From positions 1-48,417 of IMG/VR virus record IMGVR_UViG_3300048835_000023: a DNA stretch of 48,417 nt; one strand, 5' to 3'. Source of the stretch: a virus. Shown piece after piece: positions 14,450-48,105 of this stretch. Position 1 is the stretch's first letter; each line of letters opens with the position of its first letter. The notes beneath the pieces were generated by a model. That model had not been told where the DNA came from. It was given only the letters and a program-made list of their open reading frames with translations, and did no database searches. The translations under genes were made by a program, and so were the position numbers.

Positions 14450-14650
14450 TTACTTCCTTTTGTTAAAAGTCTTTTCGATAGCCTCTTCAGGATCAACTTT
14501 ACGAGTTCCATTTTTTTCTTCCATACGGCGGATCATGTCCTGAAGACCCTTGTCTTCGTCTGAACCTTCGTCAATTCGATGAACAAGATCACCCGTATAT
14601 TTCTTTCGGATTCGTTCCGCTCTAGCATCTGCTTCTTTGTCTTTCGGCAT
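14450..14650 (-). CDS. Small charged protein between terminase and portal, 66 aa
   Basis: Almost entirely charged and helical, rich in Lys, Glu, Asp and Arg. The start overlaps the large-terminase stop as TAATG and the stop is three bases before the portal start. Small proteins at this site in T7-like phages (gp6.7/gp7.3 region) are minor virion or packaging accessory proteins. That analogy is positional only. Confidence 0.65.
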   Translation of the reverse strand: MPKDKEADARAERIRKKYTGDLVHRIDEGSDEDKGLQDMIRRMEEKNGTRKVDPEEAIEKTFNKRK

Positions 14651-16218
14651 TAAGCTAATCCTCCAAATCGTCCGTGGGACATAAACTTGATCACATTACT
14701 TTGTTGAGAAGTATATCTGTTTACCGTAGGAGGCACACAGATATCAAGACAGGCTGTTAAAGCGTCCTTTACGTCGTCGTGAGGAGGTCGGCTTGAGACA
14801 AGTTCATCCTCAAGAATCTGACAATTACCACCGTGGTAGTGCCACATCTGTCTATTCTGGTACTTGGGCTCCAAGGTTGCCCTCATTCGGTCTTCCTTGG
14901 TTCCTTCGTGCCTGTTCGGTTTGAACTCATCAACACTAAGAGACAGGCCATTTGGTCTGATGTAGTTGTCTCTGAGTTCCTGAACAATAACAGCCTGAGC
15001 AACTGAAACTTCAGCCCTGATCTTTCTGAAACCCCACCTTTCGTGGAGCCGGAGGATTCGCTCGAAGTACTCTCGGATAAGAGTGGTCTTGAAGCGATCA
15101 ATATCAAGAACGTAGTAATTTCGATCTGCATCTACCCCAACAACAATAATGGAGGTAGAGTCTGCTCGTTGTCGAAGAGAGAAGGCGAAGTCAATTGCAG
15201 CGAAAACAGAGAGCCTGTTGCTCTTGTAGTACCAGAATCCGTCAGAGCGCTTCAATAGGCCCTTATCGTAATACTGGAAATACTCTCGCTTAATTCCTTC
15301 CTCATCCTCATAGTAAGTATCGTTGTAGTACTGAGCACGGAACTGACGTTGATCAATGTACTGAGCACGCTTGCGAGCAAGAATTTTTTCATCGAAACCA
15401 AACCACTTTCCATCTTTACGTTGCTGGCGAGGCCAAAGGAACTCACCCGTACCATCTCCAAGAGACTCGACCTGACGTTCAAACTTTTCAAAGAGAGGCT
15501 CTGGTTCAATCAGGTCACCGTTCTCATCGTATTGATCGACGAAGGTTTCCATCATGGTGTTGTAGAGGTCTTTGGGATGGTAACGAGTACCAACAACCCA
15601 CTCCTGCGAATCCACACCTTCGATACTGGAAAGCAGAGAGTATTGGCTTGCGACCTTCTCTCTTCCGTCTTCCGTATCTGCGTTTTCCTTCACCACAACG
15701 TCGTCCAACACAGCGATATCGCAGTGAAGGCCAGTGATCGAGGTAGTCAAACCCGCAGTAAAGATCGTGGGATCACGAACATTTTCAAGACGGCGTAATG
15801 GATGGTCTACTGCTATCTCCGACTCAGTCCACTTTTCCCTCTTACCAACGTCCTCATGTACCATCTCAGGCCAGTAACGCTTGTAGATGTCCGAGGTAAG
15901 AATATCCTTGATAAACTTAAGCTGTTTGGTAGCTAGGTTAGCCGTACTTGAAATATAGAGTACCCTAACAGCAGGGTTTTTGGTGACCTCCCACGCAACT
16001 CGGTAAGCAACCATTGCTGACTTTCCGTGGTCGCGGGGAAGTAGGACAAGCTGATGACTCTTGGCTTCGCTTCGAGTCCACCACTTAATGAGTTCGATGT
16101 GAACTCCTCCAAGTACTCGGTTAGGGTGTACGAGCCTAATGAAGAACTCAAGGTCGGCTTCTGCTCTGGACTTGATTTCGTCATGAAGTGCCTTTTGCCT
16201 TAGAACGTTTTTAGCCAT
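14650..16218 (-). CDS. Terminase large subunit, 522 aa
   Basis: DNA packaging motor. The ATPase Walker A variant LLPRDHGKS lies at residues 59-67, and a Walker B-like IAVLDDVV follows at about 166-174. The C-terminal RNase H-fold nuclease shows AAIDFAFS with a strand-turn-strand after it (about 343-365) and the late HDDVKDALT motif (about 487-495), whose Asp residues bind metal. Motif order and length agree with gp19-like terminases of T7-like phages. It overlaps the holin-like gene by 19 bases. Confidence 0.93.
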   Translation of the reverse strand: MAKNVLRQKALHDEIKSRAEADLEFFIRLVHPNRVLGGVHIELIKWWTRSEAKSHQLVLLPRDHGKSAMVAYRVAWEVTKNPAVRVLYISSTANLATKQLKFIKDILTSDIYKRYWPEMVHEDVGKREKWTESEIAVDHPLRRLENVRDPTIFTAGLTTSITGLHCDIAVLDDVVVKENADTEDGREKVASQYSLLSSIEGVDSQEWVVGTRYHPKDLYNTMMETFVDQYDENGDLIEPEPLFEKFERQVESLGDGTGEFLWPRQQRKDGKWFGFDEKILARKRAQYIDQRQFRAQYYNDTYYEDEEGIKREYFQYYDKGLLKRSDGFWYYKSNRLSVFAAIDFAFSLRQRADSTSIIVVGVDADRNYYVLDIDRFKTTLIREYFERILRLHERWGFRKIRAEVSVAQAVIVQELRDNYIRPNGLSLSVDEFKPNRHEGTKEDRMRATLEPKYQNRQMWHYHGGNCQILEDELVSSRPPHDDVKDALTACLDICVPPTVNRYTSQQSNVIKFMSHGRFGGLA

Positions 16219-22349: not shown

Positions 22350-22441
22350 GCTCCGCAGTTTGTACCTTAGGTATAACTTAAGGGGCCTAGGGATAATCCA
22401 TAGGGTTAGATACCTTTACTTATGCGGAGCATACCCTATGG
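22350..22441. repeat. Nested inverted repeats upstream of the late promoter
   Basis: GCTCCGCA (22350-22357) is inverted at 22423-22430 as TGCGGAGC. CCATAGGGT (22398-22406) is inverted at 22433-22441 as ACCCTATGG. The arms interleave, so only one structure can form at a time. A palindrome TACCTTAGGTA (22363-22373) lies inside. The arrangement resembles regulatory or origin DNA rather than a terminator. Confidence 0.6.
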
Positions 22442-22537: not shown

Positions 22538-22565
22538 TTGTTAAGTATTACTTAAGGTATTATAT
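22538..22565 (+). promoter_or_regulatory. Possible early rightward promoter
   Basis: TTGTTA (22538-22543), a 16-base spacer and TTATAT (22560-22565). Hexamers are weaker than in the leftward promoter. The first supported rightward gene begins at 23402, so a leader of more than 800 bases would result. Low certainty. Confidence 0.35.
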
Positions 22566-25688: not shown

Positions 25689-26231
25689 ATGCCTTATACA
25701 GTCGGAGGTATCTACCACTTCAACGCTTCCGCAGAGGGAATTTCCGATAATGGCTACCCACCTTATCCACCCGGAAACGATGAAGATTTCGCTGGAATGG
25801 TAATCTTCAATCGGTCGGAGTTGCAGGGCCACCCGAGCAGTTTGGTCGCAGTGACTCCGGTGGTCATGCGAATTCCTTATGATTCTCAGAATCTTTCCGA
25901 GTTGGTGTTGTGGAGGGACTTTGAGTTTGCCACTGGTTATGTCACCAACACCGAATTGATGGATCGTTATCCTCATGTACAACTTCCAGAGACACTCACG
26001 TCTTTTATCGCTGAAAACGTGTCAGGGGACAATCTGGGTGAAATGAGCTTTGGGGAATTGTTCTCGAGTGTCGGTCTGTCAGCTTGGTGGGTGGATTCAG
26101 AGGTTCAGGCTGATGCGCGCTTTTTTGGAATGGGTGTATCCGCAAGTTCAAAGAACAGACCCAGCCCATTACGGATAAGGCAAATCCCCAAGAGCAAAAG
26201 CATGTTCAAAGTCAACAAGAAAGGGGTGTGA
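25689..26231 (+). CDS. Unknown protein with conserved C-terminal tail (candidate modification substrate 1), 180 aa
   Basis: ATG at 25689, preceded by AAGGAGA. The body is acidic and aromatic, with a Pro-rich patch (NGYPPYPPGNDEDF). The last 15 residues are IPKSKSMFKVNKKGV, which closely match the last 14 of the next protein (IPKSSSSFNVNKNT). The bodies of the two proteins show no obvious similarity. The gene opens the cassette of ligase-type enzymes (26755-31461). A shared tail next to peptide ligases suggests a recognition or attachment site. No known family was recognised. Confidence 0.7.
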   Translation: MPYTVGGIYHFNASAEGISDNGYPPYPPGNDEDFAGMVIFNRSELQGHPSSLVAVTPVVMRIPYDSQNLSELVLWRDFEFATGYVTNTELMDRYPHVQLPETLTSFIAENVSGDNLGEMSFGELFSSVGLSAWWVDSEVQADARFFGMGVSASSKNRPSPLRIRQIPKSKSMFKVNKKGV

Positions 26232-26232
26232 C

Positions 26233-26685
26233 ATGCCAATTTTCTTATGGAACCCCGATACGGACGATTATACGGATGTCGAGACTCAAGACACTCCCTA
26301 TGATGATCCTCCGTATGATGATTTCATGGACGAAGAGTATGAAGAAGATGAGGAAGACTTTGATGAAATGACACAAGATGCCAACTTTGTCAGAGCTTTG
26401 GATCATCTAATCCAGAGGTTGTTGAAGGAGAGTGTAGAGGCAAGGGAACTGGTGAAGAAAAAGATATTGGAAGACCATTCCTACATTACATATGTAAGGG
26501 ATATACGTTTTGGACAGGGCTTTACTCTGGTAGAGGCTGAACATACACGACCTGATGGTACTGTTAGAACAGACCTCTTCCATCTGTTCTCTCTATTTAC
26601 GATTGAAAGTCTTCTCTCTACCTTAGGTAACTACTTAAATATACCTAAGTCTTCTTCTTCTTTTAATGTCAATAAGAACACCTAG
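26233..26685 (+). CDS. Very acidic unknown protein with the same C-terminal tail (candidate substrate 2), 150 aa
   Basis: Starts one base after the previous stop. Residues about 10-55 are extremely acidic (long Asp/Glu runs with Tyr), followed by a helical region and a strand pair (VEAEHTRPDGTV). The end is IPKSSSSFNVNKNT, matching the neighbour's tail at I, P, K, S, S, F, V, N and K. Different codons are used, so selection on the peptide rather than recent DNA copying is likely. A promoter-like palindromic repeat lies between this gene and the ligase. Function unknown. Confidence 0.7.
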   Translation: MPIFLWNPDTDDYTDVETQDTPYDDPPYDDFMDEEYEEDEEDFDEMTQDANFVRALDHLIQRLLKESVEARELVKKKILEDHSYITYVRDIRFGQGFTLVEAEHTRPDGTVRTDLFHLFSLFTIESLLSTLGNYLNIPKSSSSFNVNKNT

Positions 26686-26713
26686 AGATACCTTAGGTAT
26701 ATACCTTAGGTAT
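26619..26713. promoter_or_regulatory. TACCTTAGGTA palindromes before the ligase cassette
   Basis: Copies lie at 26619-26629, 26689-26699 and 26702-26712. The last two form an exact tandem of ATACCTTAGGTAT (26688-26713), directly before an AT-rich TATATTTTATATAGG that could serve as a -10 region. Another copy at 22363-22373 lies upstream of the late promoter. Operator function is an inference. Confidence 0.6.
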
Positions 26714-26754
26714 ATTTTATATAGGTGCTCTTAAGGAAAAAACAAGAGGCAAGC

Positions 26755-27477
26755 ATGAGAATTTTATATAGAAACTTCAGGAAGAGTGCTCGTCTCTTGG
26801 CAAGGGCACTCGGTGTCAACGCCTACCATGTAGACCGTGTTTCCTATCACCGCGCCACCGACTTCAGATATGGCTGCGACAGCGAAGGCTTGAGCAGGAT
26901 AAACAAAGCTGCTCAAAGGAAGTTTATATCCCAGACCCTTAATCTTCCTGTTCCTTATACTGTTTTGAACGGAGGGGAACGAATCGAAGGGGTTCAACAT
27001 CAAACACGGTATGTCAGCAGACCTCTGTCTCATTTCGGAGGTTCTAATTTCGTGTTGAGAGACGGACCTTTACATGAGACGGAAGACATTCCAGACGGAT
27101 GTTATTTCTCCGCCCTGTTCGAGAAGACACGAGAATATCGTATTCTTTTTGTCAAGGGAAAATTCGTTACTCTTTTGACAAAAACACCACGAGAAGGTGT
27201 CAAGGCGAGCCCTGAAATTCCGTGGAACCATGCTACAGGTGATTTTCGTTTCGTTACCACGTCTCGCGATACATATGCGGGACGGAGGTTTGAGATAATT
27301 GAACGGTTGGAAAAGTGTTTCGATAATACTAACTACTCATGGCCTGATATTGTGGGCTTTGATATCGGCTACAATCCTGAAAACTGGGTGGTGTTCGAGA
27401 TGAACTTCGCCCCTGCTTTAACCGAAGTCACCCTTCCGAGGGTTGTCTCATTCCTCACGGAGAATCAAGATGGTTAA
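26755..27477 (+). CDS. RimK-like ATP-grasp ligase, 240 aa
   Basis: ATG at 26755 (AGAGG upstream) is chosen over a GTG at 26725. The middle carries an ATP-grasp pattern KTREYRILFVKGKFV (124-138). The end has GFDIGY...WVVFEMNFAPAL (201-221), which matches the D...E-x-N metal-binding triad (Asp203, Glu215, Asn217) of RimK-type peptide ligases. Such enzymes activate a carboxylate as acyl phosphate and join it to an amine. At 240 aa it is shorter than typical (about 290-320), so part of the N-terminal fold is reduced. It overlaps the amidoligase start by 8 bases. Confidence 0.75.
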   Translation: MRILYRNFRKSARLLARALGVNAYHVDRVSYHRATDFRYGCDSEGLSRINKAAQRKFISQTLNLPVPYTVLNGGERIEGVQHQTRYVSRPLSHFGGSNFVLRDGPLHETEDIPDGCYFSALFEKTREYRILFVKGKFVTLLTKTPREGVKASPEIPWNHATGDFRFVTTSRDTYAGRRFEIIERLEKCFDNTNYSWPDIVGFDIGYNPENWVVFEMNFAPALTEVTLPRVVSFLTENQDG

Positions 27478-29671
27478 TCGGGCAACTGCACACAATGAAG
27501 TGCTGCGCGAATGGTTCAGCGATGCATATACGATGCTTATGTACAGGGTTACGACCCATCTGTTCGAGTTTCATCCGAAGACGGGTGTTGACTCCAGTAT
27601 GTGGACCGAATACGCAAGGAAGCGTCTTCGCGAAGCAGTTGTCAATCCTTTCGGATTGTTTCTGTCCAATCAATCGGACATCCTCAATCTGCACAACCCG
27701 TCTGTGCTTCGGTCTCTGACCGAAAGAATGAGTCTGGAAGATGTGGTGTGGGCCTATTTTGCCAAGTGTGTCCAAACTTACTCCACAAATGGCCTTTCTC
27801 TTCTATATGCCCGTCTCGTCCTCCTGAAAAGAAGGATCGAGAGTGGGGACACCACACCTCCGGCTCAGCTTTTGGAAAATCTGACCAGAACCACTGACGT
27901 TGCTTCTGAAAACAAGCGTGGTTTCTTCAAACTGATCGTCCACACAGGTAGTTTTCTGCTTCAATTCTCTACGAAAACCTTCTCCACCAAGTATAAGTGG
28001 ACGGTGGATGAGTCTGGTTTCGAGACCAGCTTCAACTTCTGGTTCGATTATGTGGAGACTGTGGCTCGTCTTGTGGATTTCAGCGCATTCCGCGAGACTC
28101 TGGCGACAACAACGACTATTCCGAGGTCGATCCTTTCTGATCAACTTGTTTACTCAGCAGAAAGAGGTCGTCGTCCTGCTCAGATTCACTATGTGTTTTT
28201 TCAGAGTGGATCGAATGTTTCCTCCGAGTACGTTGATGCCGAGAGGTATGGGTATCATCATCTGAACATTCAACTCAATGGTGTAAACCAAGAGGTTTTT
28301 ACGACCTACAACGTGTTGACTCTGTTTGATCGACAGGCGTCAATATCTCCTTTGGTATCTGAACTCAGGTCTCGTCCTCAGCCCCTTTGCCTGTCCGTTT
28401 CTATGCTGTCAGGACTGGTACTCCCACTACTCTCGTCATTCTTCATCCCTTTGACGGGAATCAAGTCTGTAGGTGGTACTCTTCTTCTCTTCGAGACCCC
28501 AACCAGTATAGTCTCCCTTAACAGGACTACTGACATCGTCCGTGAATTGGGGAGTCATTCTTTTCAGCTTCGGTATACTCTACCGGGACAGACTTCTGAT
28601 CCCGGTCGCCCTCTGAATTACTCTCACAGGGTGGAACGTTCGCTCAATACGCTGATCACTCCGGTGGCTCTTGATCCATTGCTCGGTGTGGAGCTTGAGG
28701 TCTCGACGGATTACACCTACCGTCAGATGATGAAAGACTGGATCGTACCAAAGAGTGACGGCTCGGTGTCTGGGTCGAAGCGGTATCTGATGGAGTTGGT
28801 TACTGCTCCGATGGCTTACTCTGTGCAACGGAGGAAGTGGCGGGAATTCTTCAAAGAACATCCTTCCAATGGTTTCTGTCTGAACACCAACACAAATGGA
28901 CTTCACATCCATCTGGCTCAGAAGAGTTTCCTGAACAACGAGCATTACTCGAACTTCGTTCGGTTCTTTCTGAATCTGGAAAACTACTCGTTCCTCCAGA
29001 TCATCTCTCACCGCCGTTTCTTCTCTGGTGGTCCGGGTCAGTTCACTGGTGTTCCGGTTTTGTTAACTCAGTTTTGGGAAAGCGAAAAGGCTTTGTTCGA
29101 GTACCTCAACAACAAGTATGTCCCTCTCGGGATCAAGGGTGAAACTGTTGAATGTCGTTTGTTCAACGGTTACCCGACTGTTGGTATGCTCCTTCTGGCT
29201 CTTGACTTTATGGGAGCTTTGTTCGTCTTCTCTTACGAGAGGAAGTTCTCTCCCAAGGCGGTGACCGTAAAGGAGTTTATCGAGTGGCTTGATACGACTC
29301 AGCGTAGCCAGTATCGTGCTCTCAAGGTGTGGTGGCGTGATCTTTCTGAGGGTCTGAAGCCGTTGATTCTGAACGGTCTCATCAGAAACAGTGACTATAC
29401 CGAAATGGACAGGACACAGTGGGTCTTTGCTCCTTCTGGTGTTATGCTTGCCCGTCCTCCGCTAAACCCTCCCGATCTTTCTTTCGAGAAGTTTGAGAAG
29501 ATTCAGCCTCCAAAAGCGGTTGCATCTTGCACTCTTGAGGACGTGCCTGATGGAACCATAGTCAGGCGTAACTACTTCACCCGACCCATTTACTTCTCGA
29601 AGAAGGACAAGTCTATGATTCGTCCTGCTCGGGCTAAGTGGCCTATCTCCAACCAAGAACGATTCGTCTGA
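27470..29671 (+). CDS. Amidoligase (COOH-NH2 ligase of the glutamine-synthetase-like fold), 733 aa
   Basis: ATG at 27470 with GGAG seven bases upstream. The C-terminal part shows the amidoligase signature. LLGVELEVS at about 402-410 carries the metal-binding Glu pair, NTNGLHIHLAQ lies at about 474-484 and GETVECRLF at about 551-559, followed by a helical end. Phage amidoligases of this fold are thought to attach amino groups or amino acids to carboxylates using ATP. About 400 N-terminal residues precede the core and match nothing recognised. It may provide the target-binding part. The usual core is only about 250-300 aa, so this is a large version. Confidence 0.8.
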   Translation: MVNRATAHNEVLREWFSDAYTMLMYRVTTHLFEFHPKTGVDSSMWTEYARKRLREAVVNPFGLFLSNQSDILNLHNPSVLRSLTERMSLEDVVWAYFAKCVQTYSTNGLSLLYARLVLLKRRIESGDTTPPAQLLENLTRTTDVASENKRGFFKLIVHTGSFLLQFSTKTFSTKYKWTVDESGFETSFNFWFDYVETVARLVDFSAFRETLATTTTIPRSILSDQLVYSAERGRRPAQIHYVFFQSGSNVSSEYVDAERYGYHHLNIQLNGVNQEVFTTYNVLTLFDRQASISPLVSELRSRPQPLCLSVSMLSGLVLPLLSSFFIPLTGIKSVGGTLLLFETPTSIVSLNRTTDIVRELGSHSFQLRYTLPGQTSDPGRPLNYSHRVERSLNTLITPVALDPLLGVELEVSTDYTYRQMMKDWIVPKSDGSVSGSKRYLMELVTAPMAYSVQRRKWREFFKEHPSNGFCLNTNTNGLHIHLAQKSFLNNEHYSNFVRFFLNLENYSFLQIISHRRFFSGGPGQFTGVPVLLTQFWESEKALFEYLNNKYVPLGIKGETVECRLFNGYPTVGMLLLALDFMGALFVFSYERKFSPKAVTVKEFIEWLDTTQRSQYRALKVWWRDLSEGLKPLILNGLIRNSDYTEMDRTQWVFAPSGVMLARPPLNPPDLSFEKFEKIQPPKAVASCTLEDVPDGTIVRRNYFTRPIYFSKKDKSMIRPARAKWPISNQERFV

Positions 29672-29699
29672 TCTCTCCTACAAGCAAAGGAAAACTGCA

Positions 29700-30818
29700 A
29701 TGTGTGTTATCATCGCCAAGCCCTCGAACGTGGCGTCCTTCGACAAGGATGACATTGTTTCTGCTTCGAGTGTCAATCCCGATGGATGGGGTGTGTCCTA
29801 CGTCGAGGAGGGTGTTCTGAAAGTGCATCGTTTCTACGACAAGAGTGGGAACAACGCAAATGAGATCAACGAATGGTTTGAGAAGCTCAAGGACAAGGAG
29901 GCTGTTTTCCACCTTCGATTCTCAACAGCGGGTGCCAAGAATGAAGAGAACTGCCACCCTTTTCTGATCCCACTGTCTGACAAGGAACAGATCGCTTTCC
30001 ACCACAACGGGACTATCTCTGAGACTGGTTCTGACTCAGAGCGGTCGGATACCAAGTGGGTCGCTGATGAAATTATGCCAAAACTATTGGCTGATTTCGT
30101 CGATCCTGAAACTGGACTGCTGAATATCAAGGACCCTGCTCTTCACTTTATCCTGACCAAGATCGCTGGTTCTGGTAGCAAGTTCGCCCTGCACTCGAAT
30201 CTTCAGGGTGTCCTACTCATCAACTCCAAAGCTGGTGACACACGTCATGGATGTTGGGTATCCAATACCTACAGCTTCAATGCCTACCACCGAACGAAAT
30301 CGACCTACTCTTCGGCTGTGTATGGTGGCTACGAAAAGGGGGTAAGCAAAGGGGCAACAGCCCCTTTTCACGCAAAGACTTCCACGGCAAAGATATCGGA
30401 AGTCACCACGAAGAAAGTAGCCAGCACCAGTCATACACAGAGTGGTGGCTCGAAAGGTACGGCACTCACGGTTACTGAACCCCTGAAGCCTGACCAGTTC
30501 AACAAGACGATGGAGACGAAGTTGGTCAAAACTATTCCTACTCTCAATCAATACCTACTGAGTCTTTATCCTGCGGTTGACCCGGAAGAGTCTCAGAACT
30601 TCGCGGCCTACACCATCGGAAAGGTTGATCTGGATCAGATGAGCAAGCTCGGTATTGACGATCTTGCAGTTATCGCTGATGATCATCCCGAAATCGTTGG
30701 TGCGCTGCTCTTCTCTCTGCTTCAGATGGCTCAGGATGCTTACTTCGCTGAGTTTATCTATACCGAAGCGGACTACGAAGGTGAAACTTCTCGTGAACTC
30801 GTAAAGAAGGTGGCTTGA
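29700..30818 (+). CDS. Class II glutamine amidotransferase with extra C-terminal domain, 372 aa
   Basis: N-terminal nucleophile Cys2 follows the initiator Met. NPDGWGVSY (26-34), HLRFSTAG (71-78), a Cys-His pair at 85-86 and HNGTIS (102-107) are the class II motifs. They hydrolyse glutamine and channel ammonia. The domain ends near residue 200. A Ser/Thr/Lys/Gly-rich linker (about 200-265) and an acidic helical C-terminal domain (about 270-372) follow and are not recognised. It directly follows the amidoligase. Supplying ammonia or glutamyl groups to that enzyme is the likely role. A terminator-like hairpin lies inside the coding sequence at 30348-30368. Confidence 0.85.
   Translation: MCVIIAKPSNVASFDKDDIVSASSVNPDGWGVSYVEEGVLKVHRFYDKSGNNANEINEWFEKLKDKEAVFHLRFSTAGAKNEENCHPFLIPLSDKEQIAFHHNGTISETGSDSERSDTKWVADEIMPKLLADFVDPETGLLNIKDPALHFILTKIAGSGSKFALHSNLQGVLLINSKAGDTRHGCWVSNTYSFNAYHRTKSTYSSAVYGGYEKGVSKGATAPFHAKTSTAKISEVTTKKVASTSHTQSGGSKGTALTVTEPLKPDQFNKTMETKLVKTIPTLNQYLLSLYPAVDPEESQNFAAYTIGKVDLDQMSKLGIDDLAVIADDHPEIVGALLFSLLQMAQDAYFAEFIYTEADYEGETSRELVKKVA
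30348..30368 (+). other. Terminator-like hairpin inside the amidotransferase gene
   Basis: AAAGGGGC (30348-30355), loop AACA, GCCCCTTTT (30360-30368). The 8-base-pair GC-rich stem plus four Ts is placed at the start of the low-complexity linker. It could attenuate transcription towards the downstream replication genes, or it could be a coincidence of coding. Confidence 0.5.
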
Positions 30819-30819
30819 T

Positions 30820-31461
30820 ATGTACCAAATAGACGCTTGGGAACGTTCGATCCTCATTGACGCTATGGGTATTAAGTTGTTCGGCTGGTCCTCAAGCTGG
30901 TCGGAGAACTTCGAGAGGGAGTTGTCTTCCTTCAACAAGAATGTCGAGGAGATGGCAGAGGATAATTACTACACCCCGGACCTCACTGAACTTTACAGTA
31001 AGGGTGCCCACTTCATCTGGCTCTGGGGGCCTTATGCCAAAGGTCATCGTCGTCAGTTGAACAAGAACTTCGACGACAAGGCTGTGATGGTTGGTCATGC
31101 AGTGCTTCCTATCACCGCGCGCCTCTCCTCCTCGCACATCACTCCCGGAAAATATGCCTTGACAAAGGAGCCCGAATCAAGCAATACTCTTGTATCGGGT
31201 GAAATCTGGATGGTGACGCCTGAGGTTGTGACTCAACTCGACTTCAACGAGAGTAACACTATCGTCAAGGAACGGGAGCTACACAACGTCTGGTTCGCAG
31301 GGAAAGATTATCCCTGTTGGGTTTATTTCGACAAGAAACCCGGCTTCGAGGTCAATATGGCTCTTGACAAGGCTTTCGTAAGTTCGTACGAGATGTCTCT
31401 CAAGAGGGACCCGAAGCGGAAGTTCACTGTGTTTTATACCCGAAAGGAGCTTATTGCGTGA
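30820..31461 (+). CDS. Gamma-glutamylcyclotransferase/AIG2-like protein, 213 aa
   Basis: The region about 64-172 follows the GGCT fold pattern. FIWLWGPYAKGH resembles the YGTLKKG substrate loop, and VSGEIWMVTPEVVTQLDFNES resembles the VEGELYEV...LDALE segment. Glu144 is the likely catalytic acid, and WVYF follows near 167. The N-terminal 60 residues are additional. The enzymes release 5-oxoproline from gamma-glutamyl groups, so this one could trim or reverse what the ligases add. The match is a distant one made by eye. It starts one base after the amidotransferase stop. Confidence 0.6.
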   Translation: MYQIDAWERSILIDAMGIKLFGWSSSWSENFERELSSFNKNVEEMAEDNYYTPDLTELYSKGAHFIWLWGPYAKGHRRQLNKNFDDKAVMVGHAVLPITARLSSSHITPGKYALTKEPESSNTLVSGEIWMVTPEVVTQLDFNESNTIVKERELHNVWFAGKDYPCWVYFDKKPGFEVNMALDKAFVSSYEMSLKRDPKRKFTVFYTRKELIA

Positions 31462-32085: not shown

Positions 32086-32286
32086 ATGATGTATTCTGTC
32101 TATATGTGCGATACCCCTTATCAGGGTACTGTAGGTGAGGGAAGGGCCACCTTCGAGTGGAATCAGCCTGCCGAGTATATGCAGTTTCTTCTCGAATGTA
32201 TTGACGCTGGAAAGGAATACTACGGAACGGCCTCCCCTTCTGAGTCCTACATGCTTGTTGGTCTGACAGCCGAGGACTTTGATTGA
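32086..32286 (+). CDS. Small hypothetical protein, 66 aa
   Basis: ATG at 32086 with GGAG six bases upstream. The longer frame from 32023 overlaps the TTG-started gene and lacks a ribosome site. Acidic, aromatic, with a strand-turn-helix pattern (RATFEWNQPAEYMQFLLECI). Its stop overlaps a TTG that is an alternative start of the helicase. No family recognised. Confidence 0.6.
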   Translation: MMYSVYMCDTPYQGTVGEGRATFEWNQPAEYMQFLLECIDAGKEYYGTASPSESYMLVGLTAEDFD

Positions 32287-32288
32287 AC

Positions 32289-33842
32289 ATGGCCTCACGG
32301 CTTTTGAAGTCTCATCAGCCGTGTCCTTGCGGGAAAAGCAGTGATGCCTACTCAGAATATGAGAATGGTGGTCATTGCTTTTCCTGCGGGAAACATTTTG
32401 GAGATTATCATATGGAGGATACCGGAGAGTACTCGTTCGAGTACCTTCCTTGGCGTGGCATCACCAAGGAAACGATGGAACGATACAAGGTGCTGACCAA
32501 GATCGACTCTGAAGGTAAACCTCTGTCTATCGGATTCCCATATGGGACGGCGGCTTACAAGATCAGAGATATCAATCTCAAGCGATTCTTGTCGAAGGGT
32601 CCCATCTCAACTGAGCCTTTGTTCGGTATGTCTGCCTTTAGCGCAGGGAGCTTCCGTGAGATCACTATTACGGAAGGTGAGATGGATGCCATGTCCATGT
32701 GGCAAGTCACTGGACGACCTGCTGTGTCCATTCGTGGGGCCTCTTCAGCCAAGAAGGATATCATCGCAAACATCGACTACTTCAACTCGTTCAATCGTAT
32801 CTACCTTGCGTTGGATAACGATGGTCCGGGTGAAGAAGCTACCAAGGCTATCGCAAGCCTCTTCGACTTCAACAAAATCTACCATGTCAAACTGACCAAG
32901 TACAAGGATGCGAGCGATTATGTCCAGAACGGGGCTTCTGAAGAACTTAAGTGGTCTTGGATCAATGCTCGTAGGTTTCTTCCAGCGGAAGTTTACTCGT
33001 CATTCGATCAGTTTCGAGACCTCTTGCGGGAGGAGTCTGCTGAAAGTCTCGGTTCCTACCCATTTCCCACCCTGCAAAGTAAGACTTATGGTCTCCGGGC
33101 AGGAGAGGTTGTCCTATTCACCGCCCTCGAAGGAATTGGAAAAACCGAAATCATCCGAGCCATCGAGCATCACATCCTTAAATCTACCGATCTCAAAATT
33201 GCGGTGATTCATCTTGAGGAGTCCAAGAAACGGACACTTCAGGGGCTAGCCAGTTATGAGTTGGACCGTCCTGTACATCTTCCTGATTCTTCTCTATCTG
33301 AGGAGGAGGTCTTTGATGCTGTCAAGAAGGCTGTTGTTGTGGATGACCGTCTCCACATATATACTCATTTTGGTTCTGATGATCCAGATGTTATTCTGAG
33401 CATCATAAGGTTCCTTGTGAGTTCGTGTGGATGCAAGCTCGTTTTCCTCGATCACATCACCATGCTTGTTACTGGCAGTAAGGACGATGATGAGCGGCGG
33501 TCCCTCGACTATCTCTCTACCAAGTTCGAGTGGATGGTTGAGGAACTTGGTTTCTGTCTTGTCCTTGTGTCCCATGAGAATGACGACGGTAAGACTCGTG
33601 GTTCTCGTAACATCAGCAAGATCGCTGACCTGTGGATTCAGTTGATCCGTGACAAGGAGGCTGCTACTGAGACAGAACGTAACACGACTACCTTGATGTG
33701 TAAGAAGAATCGTTTCGCTTCGCACACTGGTGTCATGGGATATCTTTACTTTGATCCCACAACTTTCAAGGTAACAGAAAAGACTGATGCTGAACTCAAC
33801 CACATGGTATCTGGAAACACAGTAGAGGACTTACCAACATGA
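32289..33842 (+). CDS. Primase-helicase (T7 gp4-like), 517 aa
   Basis: The N-terminal zinc-binding region has CPCGKS at about 10-15 and CFSC at 30-33. A TOPRIM primase core follows, with TEGEMDAM (Glu near 130) and LALDNDGPG near 173-181. The hexameric helicase domain has Walker A ALEGIGKTE (about 279-287) and Walker B KLVFLDHI (about 376). It synthesises primers and unwinds the fork ahead of the T7-like polymerase. A TTG at 32283 with better ribosome-site spacing is an alternative start adding two residues. Length is close to T7 gp4 (566). Confidence 0.92.
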   Translation: MASRLLKSHQPCPCGKSSDAYSEYENGGHCFSCGKHFGDYHMEDTGEYSFEYLPWRGITKETMERYKVLTKIDSEGKPLSIGFPYGTAAYKIRDINLKRFLSKGPISTEPLFGMSAFSAGSFREITITEGEMDAMSMWQVTGRPAVSIRGASSAKKDIIANIDYFNSFNRIYLALDNDGPGEEATKAIASLFDFNKIYHVKLTKYKDASDYVQNGASEELKWSWINARRFLPAEVYSSFDQFRDLLREESAESLGSYPFPTLQSKTYGLRAGEVVLFTALEGIGKTEIIRAIEHHILKSTDLKIAVIHLEESKKRTLQGLASYELDRPVHLPDSSLSEEEVFDAVKKAVVVDDRLHIYTHFGSDDPDVILSIIRFLVSSCGCKLVFLDHITMLVTGSKDDDERRSLDYLSTKFEWMVEELGFCLVLVSHENDDGKTRGSRNISKIADLWIQLIRDKEAATETERNTTTLMCKKNRFASHTGVMGYLYFDPTTFKVTEKTDAELNHMVSGNTVEDLPT

Positions 33843-45261: not shown

Positions 45262-48105
45262 TTATTCGTCGTTTAGTTTCTTGAGAGCCTGTCGTACCTT
45301 GTCCAGACTGACAGTGGCTCGATTCAGACCATCACCAGCGTAGTGCGAACGTCCACTGGTATTTGGCAGACCAGCCCATTCCTTGGCAAGGTTATTGAGG
45401 AACTGGTCCTCGGACATTTTCCCTGACTTGAACTTATCCCAACCACGACGTTTCATCAACGCCACACCGAGCTTATCCTGAAGCTCCTCGTTGAACGTAG
45501 CGTTCAGAGGGATACCGAGATCACTGATCAGACCCTTGAGGGTCTTGTTGATGAACTGATACCTACCAAGAGCGGACGACGGAGAGCCGTTATTGACCAT
45601 GTTCCTCTGAAGGGTAAGAACATCTCCCACAGTCATCGAGGTAAGATTGAGCGTCTTGCCTCCGAAGATTTTGTTGTAGCCGTTCTTACCAGACTCAGCC
45701 GAAGCAACAAGATTCAAGAGGCGTTTCTCTGGTGTAGACGCAGTGAGGTTAGTGTAGTCTGTAGAAGTATCCGACTTCAGCGAGACGTACTCTTCTTCAG
45801 AAGAATCAAATTTGGCGTTAGGCGTCAAACTGAAAGCCTTGTTTGTGTCAAGGAAGTCGTCTCTTGTAATACCAAGACTCTGACCAATCTCCTTGGCACG
45901 TTTCTCCACGTACGAGTCGATCTGCTGAACACTAACCGGCCCCTCTTCGTTTCCAAACATATTAGTCATCTGGATATTAGGAGGGGTAGTTCCTGTTCCA
46001 AATCGTTGAGGCTGAATCTCAGGATTGAGGTTCTGTTTCTGAACTGGGTTGCCAGTCGTCTCATCAACCTGTGTGTTTCCTTCCCGATCCGTCAGTCGAT
46101 TCAGCATCATCTGCCAGACGTTGGCACGACGAGGATTAGTCTCGTTGATACCAACAGCCTGAAGGAACGCCTGAATCTCCTGCATAGGATCAAGGCCCAT
46201 CATAGTGTACTGACGCTTGAGAATGTCAATGTTCTCATTCATCTTATCCACTTCCTTCTGGAACGAAGGAGTGATTGCACTACCTGGGTTAGAACCAAAG
46301 CGACCACCAAGGGCTCGTTCCTGTTCGGTCAACTTACGAGTCTGAACAGGGCGAATACGGCCAGTCTTGGGATCAATCTCGATAGAAACAGCACCACCGG
46401 GCTCGGTAACCTTGTCTACGATGGAGTCTGCGGAAGTCTGAAGATTGGCACGAGCACCACGCTCAATGAAAAGCTGGACGTGCTTGGCTGCTTCCGTTCC
46501 CTGAATTTTGGAAAGATTCTTCAGAATATCAGGAGACGTAAACATCTTGAACAAAGCTTGACGCTCTTCTGGAACAAAGTTCTCAACCCAAGCCTTGGAG
46601 CTATCGCCAGACCCAAAGATTTGAGTAGCAAACTTCTGAAGAGTCTCGGGAGAGGACTGAGGATTAGCCAGTTCCTTTGCAGCAGACTTAAGAAGGTTGG
46701 TTGCAGCCACTTTGGTCTCGGCTTCAGGAACACCAAGCAGATTGCCCTGTTCCCTCAGGGTCTTGATTGTTTCTCCAAGGTTTTTGCCCGGAGACATCGT
46801 GGTAGCCTTAAGGTGCATCTCGAACGCTTGGGTAATCGCTTTGACATTACTAACATAGCGATCACCCTGAGTCAGAATCCACTTAAAGCCTTCAGGGCCA
46901 AGAGCTTCCTTCAAGGCGGACATGCTACGAAGATGAGGACTAAGCTCAAAGAGTTTCCTCGTATCGCTATTGATCATCATATCGAGCATGGTTTTGTTAG
47001 CCTTAAGGGCAGACAAATCCCCCTTCTCCACCAAGTCAAGAACATCGCCGAAACGCTTGTCCATCATATCTCGATACTTCTTGATATCTTCTGGCCCAAG
47101 AGTCTGTAGGAAATTCTTCTTTCCGTCACCGTAGGTGGACGCCAGTTCTTCGTCGAACTTGGTATTAGCCTCACGACGAAGAGCTTCGACAGCGGTCTTA
47201 ATCTTTAGCACATCTTGCGGGTTAATGATCTGACCCTCTTTCATGCTACTGAGAATAGGGCCGAGTTCCTCAAATGCTTTACTAAGCTGCTTTGTAACCA
47301 TACGGTACGAGAAGTTATTGATGTAGCCTTCAACATCTCCTTTTTCCGCCTTACCCTGCTTTTCCTTCAGGTCCAGACGAGACTTTTCAAGCTGAAGGTC
47401 AGAAGCATAACCCTTGCGGTCAGCGATGTACTTCATGTACTCGGCACGTTTAGTTGGATCGTTCCAGCCACCCGCGATAGCCTCAGTACGTTTATCAGGC
47501 GGAAGCTCTTCCAGATTGTTCCTGATAAAGGTTCTGTCTTTTTCCGCTTCAGCAGCAGCAGAGCTTTTTGACGCCTCAATCCTTCCAGTGATCTCTCGAA
47601 TGATCGCGTTAGCAGGCTTCATCCCAGTAATCTTGGATACCTTGTCGTCGATGAATTCGCGGTAACCCGGGTACTGAGCACGAAGGTTGCGAACAAGAGC
47701 CTCCGAGCGTTGAGCATAATACATCTGGCTGATCTTACCCTGCTCAAGAGCGGTCTTGAGTCGGGAGAGGCTTTCCGTATTACGCTCAACGGTCTCGGCA
47801 ACAGCAGGGTTGATATTCTGGTTGTTCTCATTCCCGGTGAAGAGAGGGGTCTTTGCAGCGCCAGCTTCGGCAGCCACATCGACACCCATCTCCTTGTAAA
47901 TGTCATCGACTCCACCGTAGAGACTCTTGGAAATATCTTCCTTGTTCTTTTCGTCAATAGCCGTAACAGCACCCTCAGCGAGACTCCCAATGCCTTTGAA
48001 GAGTTCTCCAAAGCCGGTGTTGGGGCGAACACGATCAGGCTCTTTCGACAACCCAATGTAGGAAGTCGGATTGACATTTTGAACCTTTTGAGTAATCTCG
48101 GCCAT
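45262..48105 (-). CDS. Ejection protein with C-terminal muramidase domain (947 aa)
   Basis: This is the last gene of the leftward late unit. Residues 1 to about 780 are largely helical and charged, as in phage internal core proteins. Residues about 790-935 resemble phage muramidases of the lambda-lysozyme type: an early Glu in ASAESG, a Gly-Gly turn, a MTVGDVL segment and the ALGRYQFI motif. This arrangement fits a virion-carried wall hydrolase that opens peptidoglycan during genome entry. That is the role of T7 gp16, although T7 carries a transglycosylase domain at the N terminus. The start overlaps the previous stop (TAATG). The stop lies directly against a bidirectional terminator. A long antisense open frame at 46006-47109 is a shadow. 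Confidence 0.85.
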   Translation of the reverse strand: MAEITQKVQNVNPTSYIGLSKEPDRVRPNTGFGELFKGIGSLAEGAVTAIDEKNKEDISKSLYGGVDDIYKEMGVDVAAEAGAAKTPLFTGNENNQNINPAVAETVERNTESLSRLKTALEQGKISQMYYAQRSEALVRNLRAQYPGYREFIDDKVSKITGMKPANAIIREITGRIEASKSSAAAEAEKDRTFIRNNLEELPPDKRTEAIAGGWNDPTKRAEYMKYIADRKGYASDLQLEKSRLDLKEKQGKAEKGDVEGYINNFSYRMVTKQLSKAFEELGPILSSMKEGQIINPQDVLKIKTAVEALRREANTKFDEELASTYGDGKKNFLQTLGPEDIKKYRDMMDKRFGDVLDLVEKGDLSALKANKTMLDMMINSDTRKLFELSPHLRSMSALKEALGPEGFKWILTQGDRYVSNVKAITQAFEMHLKATTMSPGKNLGETIKTLREQGNLLGVPEAETKVAATNLLKSAAKELANPQSSPETLQKFATQIFGSGDSSKAWVENFVPEERQALFKMFTSPDILKNLSKIQGTEAAKHVQLFIERGARANLQTSADSIVDKVTEPGGAVSIEIDPKTGRIRPVQTRKLTEQERALGGRFGSNPGSAITPSFQKEVDKMNENIDILKRQYTMMGLDPMQEIQAFLQAVGINETNPRRANVWQMMLNRLTDREGNTQVDETTGNPVQKQNLNPEIQPQRFGTGTTPPNIQMTNMFGNEEGPVSVQQIDSYVEKRAKEIGQSLGITRDDFLDTNKAFSLTPNAKFDSSEEEYVSLKSDTSTDYTNLTASTPEKRLLNLVASAESGKNGYNKIFGGKTLNLTSMTVGDVLTLQRNMVNNGSPSSALGRYQFINKTLKGLISDLGIPLNATFNEELQDKLGVALMKRRGWDKFKSGKMSEDQFLNNLAKEWAGLPNTSGRSHYAGDGLNRATVSLDKVRQALKKLNDE

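Follow-up and report, generated by a model that had tools for sequence, protein, structure and literature searches.

Phage cassettes that carry an amidoligase together with a glutamine amidotransferase (GATase) and an ATP-grasp ligase are widespread and have been under discussion since 2009. A "Peptidoglycan Modification Cassette" of the same families as those described here is present in RIO-1-like phages, phiEco32, LUZ24, PaP3 and others (PMC5498523), and the amidoligase/GATase pair is also present in OM43 phages (PMC10580990). Two ideas have been advanced for the cassette, namely, prevention of superinfection or readying of the wall for lysis (PMC11945000). Missense changes reported in both the amidoligase and the GATase gene of a Pseudomonas phage after evolution (PMC11450229) are an indirect hint that these genes matter. 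The original prediction for the locus analyzed here stated that such neighborhoods had no defined function in the literature; cell-wall alteration against superinfection had in fact already been published as a hypothesis (PMC5498523, PMC11945000, PMC10580990), although it is still a proposal, and we found in the literature no biochemical test of cassette function and no activity reported for any phage member.

The window, that is, the whole stretch of DNA analyzed, is a 48,417-base record of a bacterial virus, with structural genes mostly on the minus strand and early and replication genes on the plus strand. The structural module is Zobellviridae-type, and the terminase (14650-16218, minus strand) has its closest relatives among Zobellviridae/Cobavirinae phages of Rhodobacteraceae (59-65%), whereas the DNA primase/helicase (32283-33842, plus strand; phrog_239, 2.6e-129), the conserved gene that follows the cassette in many phages, is closest to that of Rhizobium phage RHph_N3_19 (44%), which makes the genome look mosaic. 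A DNA search of phages identified no annotated phage similar at the DNA level over positions 24600-45200. One IMG/VR fragment carries the cassette with 100% protein identity to the window, and this identical contig was the sole match in the single-protein viral scans. Rfam and tRNA searches returned nothing. At 45262-48105 (minus strand), the virus encodes a 947-aa protein, the C-terminal part of which matches endolysin and tail-lysozyme families.

Among the early genes, on the forward strand and before the primase/helicase, we identified four coupled genes (26755-31461), the products of which are, in order, an ATP-grasp ligase, an amidoligase resembling glutamine synthetase, a class II GATase and a GGCT-like protein. 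The first gene overlaps the second, which starts with the ATG at 27470, by 8 bases, and the remaining intervals in the cassette are 1-28 bases. Single-protein Pfam searches recovered GATase_4 above the cut-off (2.1e-11), GGACT 0.1 bit below it (1.5e-4) and Amidoligase_2 at 0.17; the ATP-grasp product had no Pfam ATP-grasp match, only phrog_2599 at 0.012. With tblastn in phages, the amidoligase and the GGCT-like protein had no match and the ATP-grasp protein had one insignificant match. We therefore relied on profiles built from other phages (members recruited from 27 reference and amidoligase loci, 2 tail-pattern loci and 46 ATP-grasp loci), with the window and the identical contig excluded, and searched them against all 212 window ORFs of at least 60 aa. 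Each profile found the expected ORF, with E-values of 1.9e-20 (ATP-grasp), 3.7e-20 (amidoligase), 6.9e-37 (GATase) and 8.1e-9 (GGCT), the loci behind the profiles having been gathered in part by means of queries that included proteins of the window; the next-best window ORFs scored 0.011 and 0.043. Thus, the four family assignments of the original prediction are borne out, all at 8.1e-9 or better, and the joint presence of the four families among the early genes points to membership in the phage amidoligase/peptidoglycan modification cassettes. The predicted extent of the cassette, 25689-31461, was too wide: the described ORFs are present, but the enzymes occupy only 26755-31461, and the first two ORFs (25689-26231 and 26233-26685) have no family match.

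The first cassette gene (26755-27477; alternative GTG start at 26725) encodes a putative ATP-grasp peptide/amide ligase of 240 aa which, judged from the alignment of sequences only, retains the metal site D...E-x-N at the protein end. The second (27470-29671, 733 aa; alternative TTG start at 27443) comprises an N-terminal extension of approximately 385 residues (27470-28624) and a domain of the Amidoligase_2, or glutamine-synthetase-like COOH-NH2 ligase, type (28655-29365). The motifs GxExE, GxHxH and ExR, noted originally as GVELE/GLHIHL/ECRLF, are intact in this domain and invariant across 30 sequences. The AlphaFold model of the domain built from the 30-sequence alignment (pLDDT 78, pTM 0.79) was matched by Foldseek to glutamine synthetase (2e-4, probability 1.00) and to YbdK (6.7e-4), a glutamate-cysteine-ligase-type enzyme, with moderate TM-scores of about 0.4. 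The placement of these motifs in a modeled glutamine-synthetase fold argues for Amidoligase_2 membership. The extension is unassigned; phmmer found no relative among 5040 ORFs except in the identical contig, and structure prediction, proposed originally as a check on this part, yielded a full-length model with pLDDT of about 30 over most of the approximately 385 residues. When genomes were scanned for cellular relatives of the amidoligase, the matches were only weak and lay in Clostridia-type assemblies. The third gene (29700-30818) encodes a predicted class II (Ntn) GATase of 372 aa, with the N-terminal Cys2 nucleophile and the motifs HxRxxT, NG and D intact, and the fourth (30820-31461) encodes, judged likewise from sequence only, a probable GGCT/AIG2-like gamma-glutamyl cyclotransferase-like protein of 213 aa, with a GGCT domain in which the GE containing the catalytic Glu is conserved. 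GATase-GGCT fusions are encoded by phages C75C1 and ctfjg026.

The predicted conservation of the neighborhood was confirmed by a survey of 45 other viral loci. Within 6 kb of the ATP-grasp gene, we found GATase in 42, COOH-NH2 ligase in 30, amidoligase in 28, primase/helicase in 18 and GGCT in 14 of the 45 loci, and the order of the four window genes followed by the primase/helicase recurs in IMG/VR contigs L103 and L105. The gene recognized before the GATase was an amidoligase in 43 loci and lay at most 60 bases away or overlapped in 39 of these, a count that takes in the window and the identical fragment and many loci closely related to each other. Five control phages (HMO-2011, P12053L, CRP-4, ICBM1 and SIO1; 1003 ORFs), four of which are relatives of the window by terminase, gave no match to the four profiles; thus, the cassette is accessory.

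Three exact copies of the palindrome TACCTTAGGTA (at 26619, 26689 and 26702, within 26619-26712, forward strand) lie just upstream of the cassette, and a fourth exact copy is at 22363 (22363-22373). Allowing at most one mismatch, there are 9 matches on both strands against 0.44 expected, and TATATAGG follows two of the sites. The palindrome is absent from L103 and L105. It is a candidate operator or promoter element. The palindrome is also repeated between genes at 22.3-22.6 kb, including 22549-22559.

From the families, we infer that the set adds and removes amide-linked groups, and we favor, with a probability of about 0.6, a compact phage amidoligase/"peptidoglycan modification" cassette, in which glutamine-fed amidation and ligation would act on a peptide and the GGCT-like protein would clear gamma-glutamyl groups, with host peptidoglycan the most likely target. 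Because the amidoligase precedes the GATase in 43 loci, tightly in 39, the two enzymes are suggested to work together, and this pairing suggests transfer of ammonia from glutamine to an ATP-activated carboxylate. In this scheme, the GATase would hydrolyze glutamine and hand the ammonia to the glutamine-synthetase-like amidoligase, which would amidate a carboxylate at the expense of ATP; the ATP-grasp enzyme would couple an amino acid to a peptide carboxylate, and the GGCT-like protein, the relatives of which release 5-oxoproline from gamma-glutamyl amines, would cyclize off gamma-glutamyl groups. The substrate, which is the most speculative part, would most likely be the stem peptide of host peptidoglycan or its precursor, and such a change in the wall early in infection might hinder competing phages or prepare lysis. 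Several points count against this explanation: the cassette contains no cell-wall gene, the N-terminal half of the amidoligase gene has no place in the scheme, and no profile match to a separate COOH-NH2 ligase gene (PF14395 type), common but not universal in such cassettes, was found in the window, which therefore lacks part of the published pathway.

An alternative that we consider unlikely is that the cassette modifies host or phage proteins: a RimK-like ATP-grasp enzyme would extend protein ends with amino acids, which the amidoligase/GATase and the GGCT-like protein would cap or trim. The profile of the ATP-grasp alignment (A2), which includes LUZ24 and rhizobial relatives, matches the peptide and protein ligases RimK, microviridin-type ligase and cyanophycin synthetase as well as D-Ala-D-Ala ligase, but two of these, the cyanophycin and D-Ala-D-Ala enzymes, do not modify proteins. 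The best match of the low-confidence full-length amidoligase model is the Pup ligase PafA (E 0.012), and small proteins with shared tails surround the ligase in some relatives, but most cassette loci lack such tails.

We give rather little credence to the possibility that the cassette serves phage nucleotide synthesis, either by producing a small gamma-glutamyl or amide metabolite or by recycling nitrogen from glutamine or glutathione. Genes for replication and nucleotide metabolism (those of ThyX, thymidine kinase and ribonucleotide reductase) do surround the cassette, GGCT and GATase use small molecules in known pathways, and the YbdK match of the amidoligase domain model fits this alternative as well; however, two separate ATP-dependent ligases are hard to reconcile with a simple nitrogen supply.

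A more specific proposal, phage-encoded protein tagging, in which the ATP-grasp/amidoligase set would recognize and modify a common, phage-specific C-terminal tail on small early proteins with unrelated or strongly diverged bodies, appears improbable to us. Its substrates here would be the products of the two forward-strand ORFs upstream of the cassette, a 180-aa protein (25689-26231) with the C-terminal tail IPKSKSMFKVNK and an acidic 150-aa protein (26233-26685) with the tail IPKSSSSFNVNK, neither of which has a Pfam, PHROG or NCBIfam match. The bodies of the two proteins are unrelated, but 9 of the 12 tail residues are identical (IPKS(K/S)S(M/S)F(K/N)VNK), making this the top-scoring of 101,475 window tail pairs, and the tail DNA differs at 17 of 36 bases. 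In RHph_N3_19 and Sinorhizobium phage phiM6, some 12-15 small early proteins have acidic tails in common although their bodies have diverged; comparable sets lie on either side of the ATP-grasp gene in L080 and L160, with further examples in L056, L057, L107 and G001. Codon analysis of the tails in RHph_N3_19, phiM6, L160 and L080 (divergence of 0.44-0.66 at the third position versus 0.10-0.34 at the first two) shows that they are conserved at the protein level. The small early proteins near the ATP-grasp/amidoligase genes of RHph_N3_19 (L012), phiM6 (L013), L160 (1-2555) and L080 (5886-8806) are mostly VGD/SH3-like and carry a phage-specific tail. In L056 (1-12195), about a dozen small proteins end in LENE; the DNA that encodes this ending, TGGAGAATGA, hardly varies and has the look of a ribosome-binding site for the gene that follows.

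Several tail-family definitions were tried in turn, and the following counts vary with the choice. With a tail score of at least 46 and at least three members, positives were 1 of 46 ATP-grasp-anchored loci, 1 of 4 primase-anchored loci with ATP-grasp and 1 of 75 without it; this last positive, L107, contains a cut GGCT gene. Under rules of terminal identity, positives numbered 3-4 among 53 cassette loci versus 1 among 78, a tail-fiber set in HMO-2011 (Fisher p 0.30, 0.30 and 0.16). Hand-entered counts gave 5/56 versus 0/93 (Fisher p 0.007), including the phages that inspired the idea, and 2/50 versus 0/93 (p 0.12) for the systematic loci only. Because the terminal-identity p-values are 0.16-0.30 and the p of 0.007 includes the inspiring phages, enrichment of tails with the cassette is not established. 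Shared tails as a general property of the cassette were rejected: they are missing from LUZ24, phiEco32 and the majority of loci, and the L056 tail resembles a ribosome-binding site. The tail-sharing small proteins beside the cassette in several other phages represent a new candidate substrate class, with the ribosome-binding-site explanation holding for at least one.

Modification of phage DNA bases by the cassette is very improbable: GATase domains do feature in the 7-deazaguanine pathways known from phages, but no base-modification enzyme was found among the early-region genes scanned, and ThyX and thymidine kinase have ordinary roles in nucleotide metabolism.

Under the favored reading, a peptidoglycan modification cassette, the locus can be compared with several known systems. 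The LUZ24 and phiEco32 cassettes consist of the same enzyme families in the same place before the primase/helicase, as does that of RIO-1 (PMC5498523), but they include a COOH-NH2 ligase, and their GATase is longer and carries a GlmS-like annotation, whereas the window has only four genes. In phiM6 and RHph_N3_19, the primase/helicases of which are among the closest annotated ones to that of the window (43-44%), the same four families form one block just upstream of the primase/helicase; however, the amidoligase precedes the ATP-grasp gene and is about 345 aa long versus 733 aa, an extra COOH-NH2 ligase and a second GATase lie upstream, and many tail-sharing small proteins are interspersed in the cassette (RHph_N3_19) or located further upstream (phiM6). 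Methylophilales phage MEP402 and related contigs share the overlapping amidoligase-GATase pair and a Zobellviridae-type terminase (56%), but no ATP-grasp gene was found in them and GGCT is usually missing. In L103 and L105, the gene order of the window is kept from ATP-grasp through amidoligase (about 600 aa), GATase and GGCT to the primase/helicase, which is 51-52% identical to that of the window, although their cassette proteins are only 25-37% identical to those of the window and no shared-tail pair lies upstream. Many other phages carry the four-gene set, and the window adds to this known type a compact member that lacks a separate COOH-NH2 ligase; with four genes in a fixed order and two relatives with the same block, it is a convenient minimal set for biochemistry.
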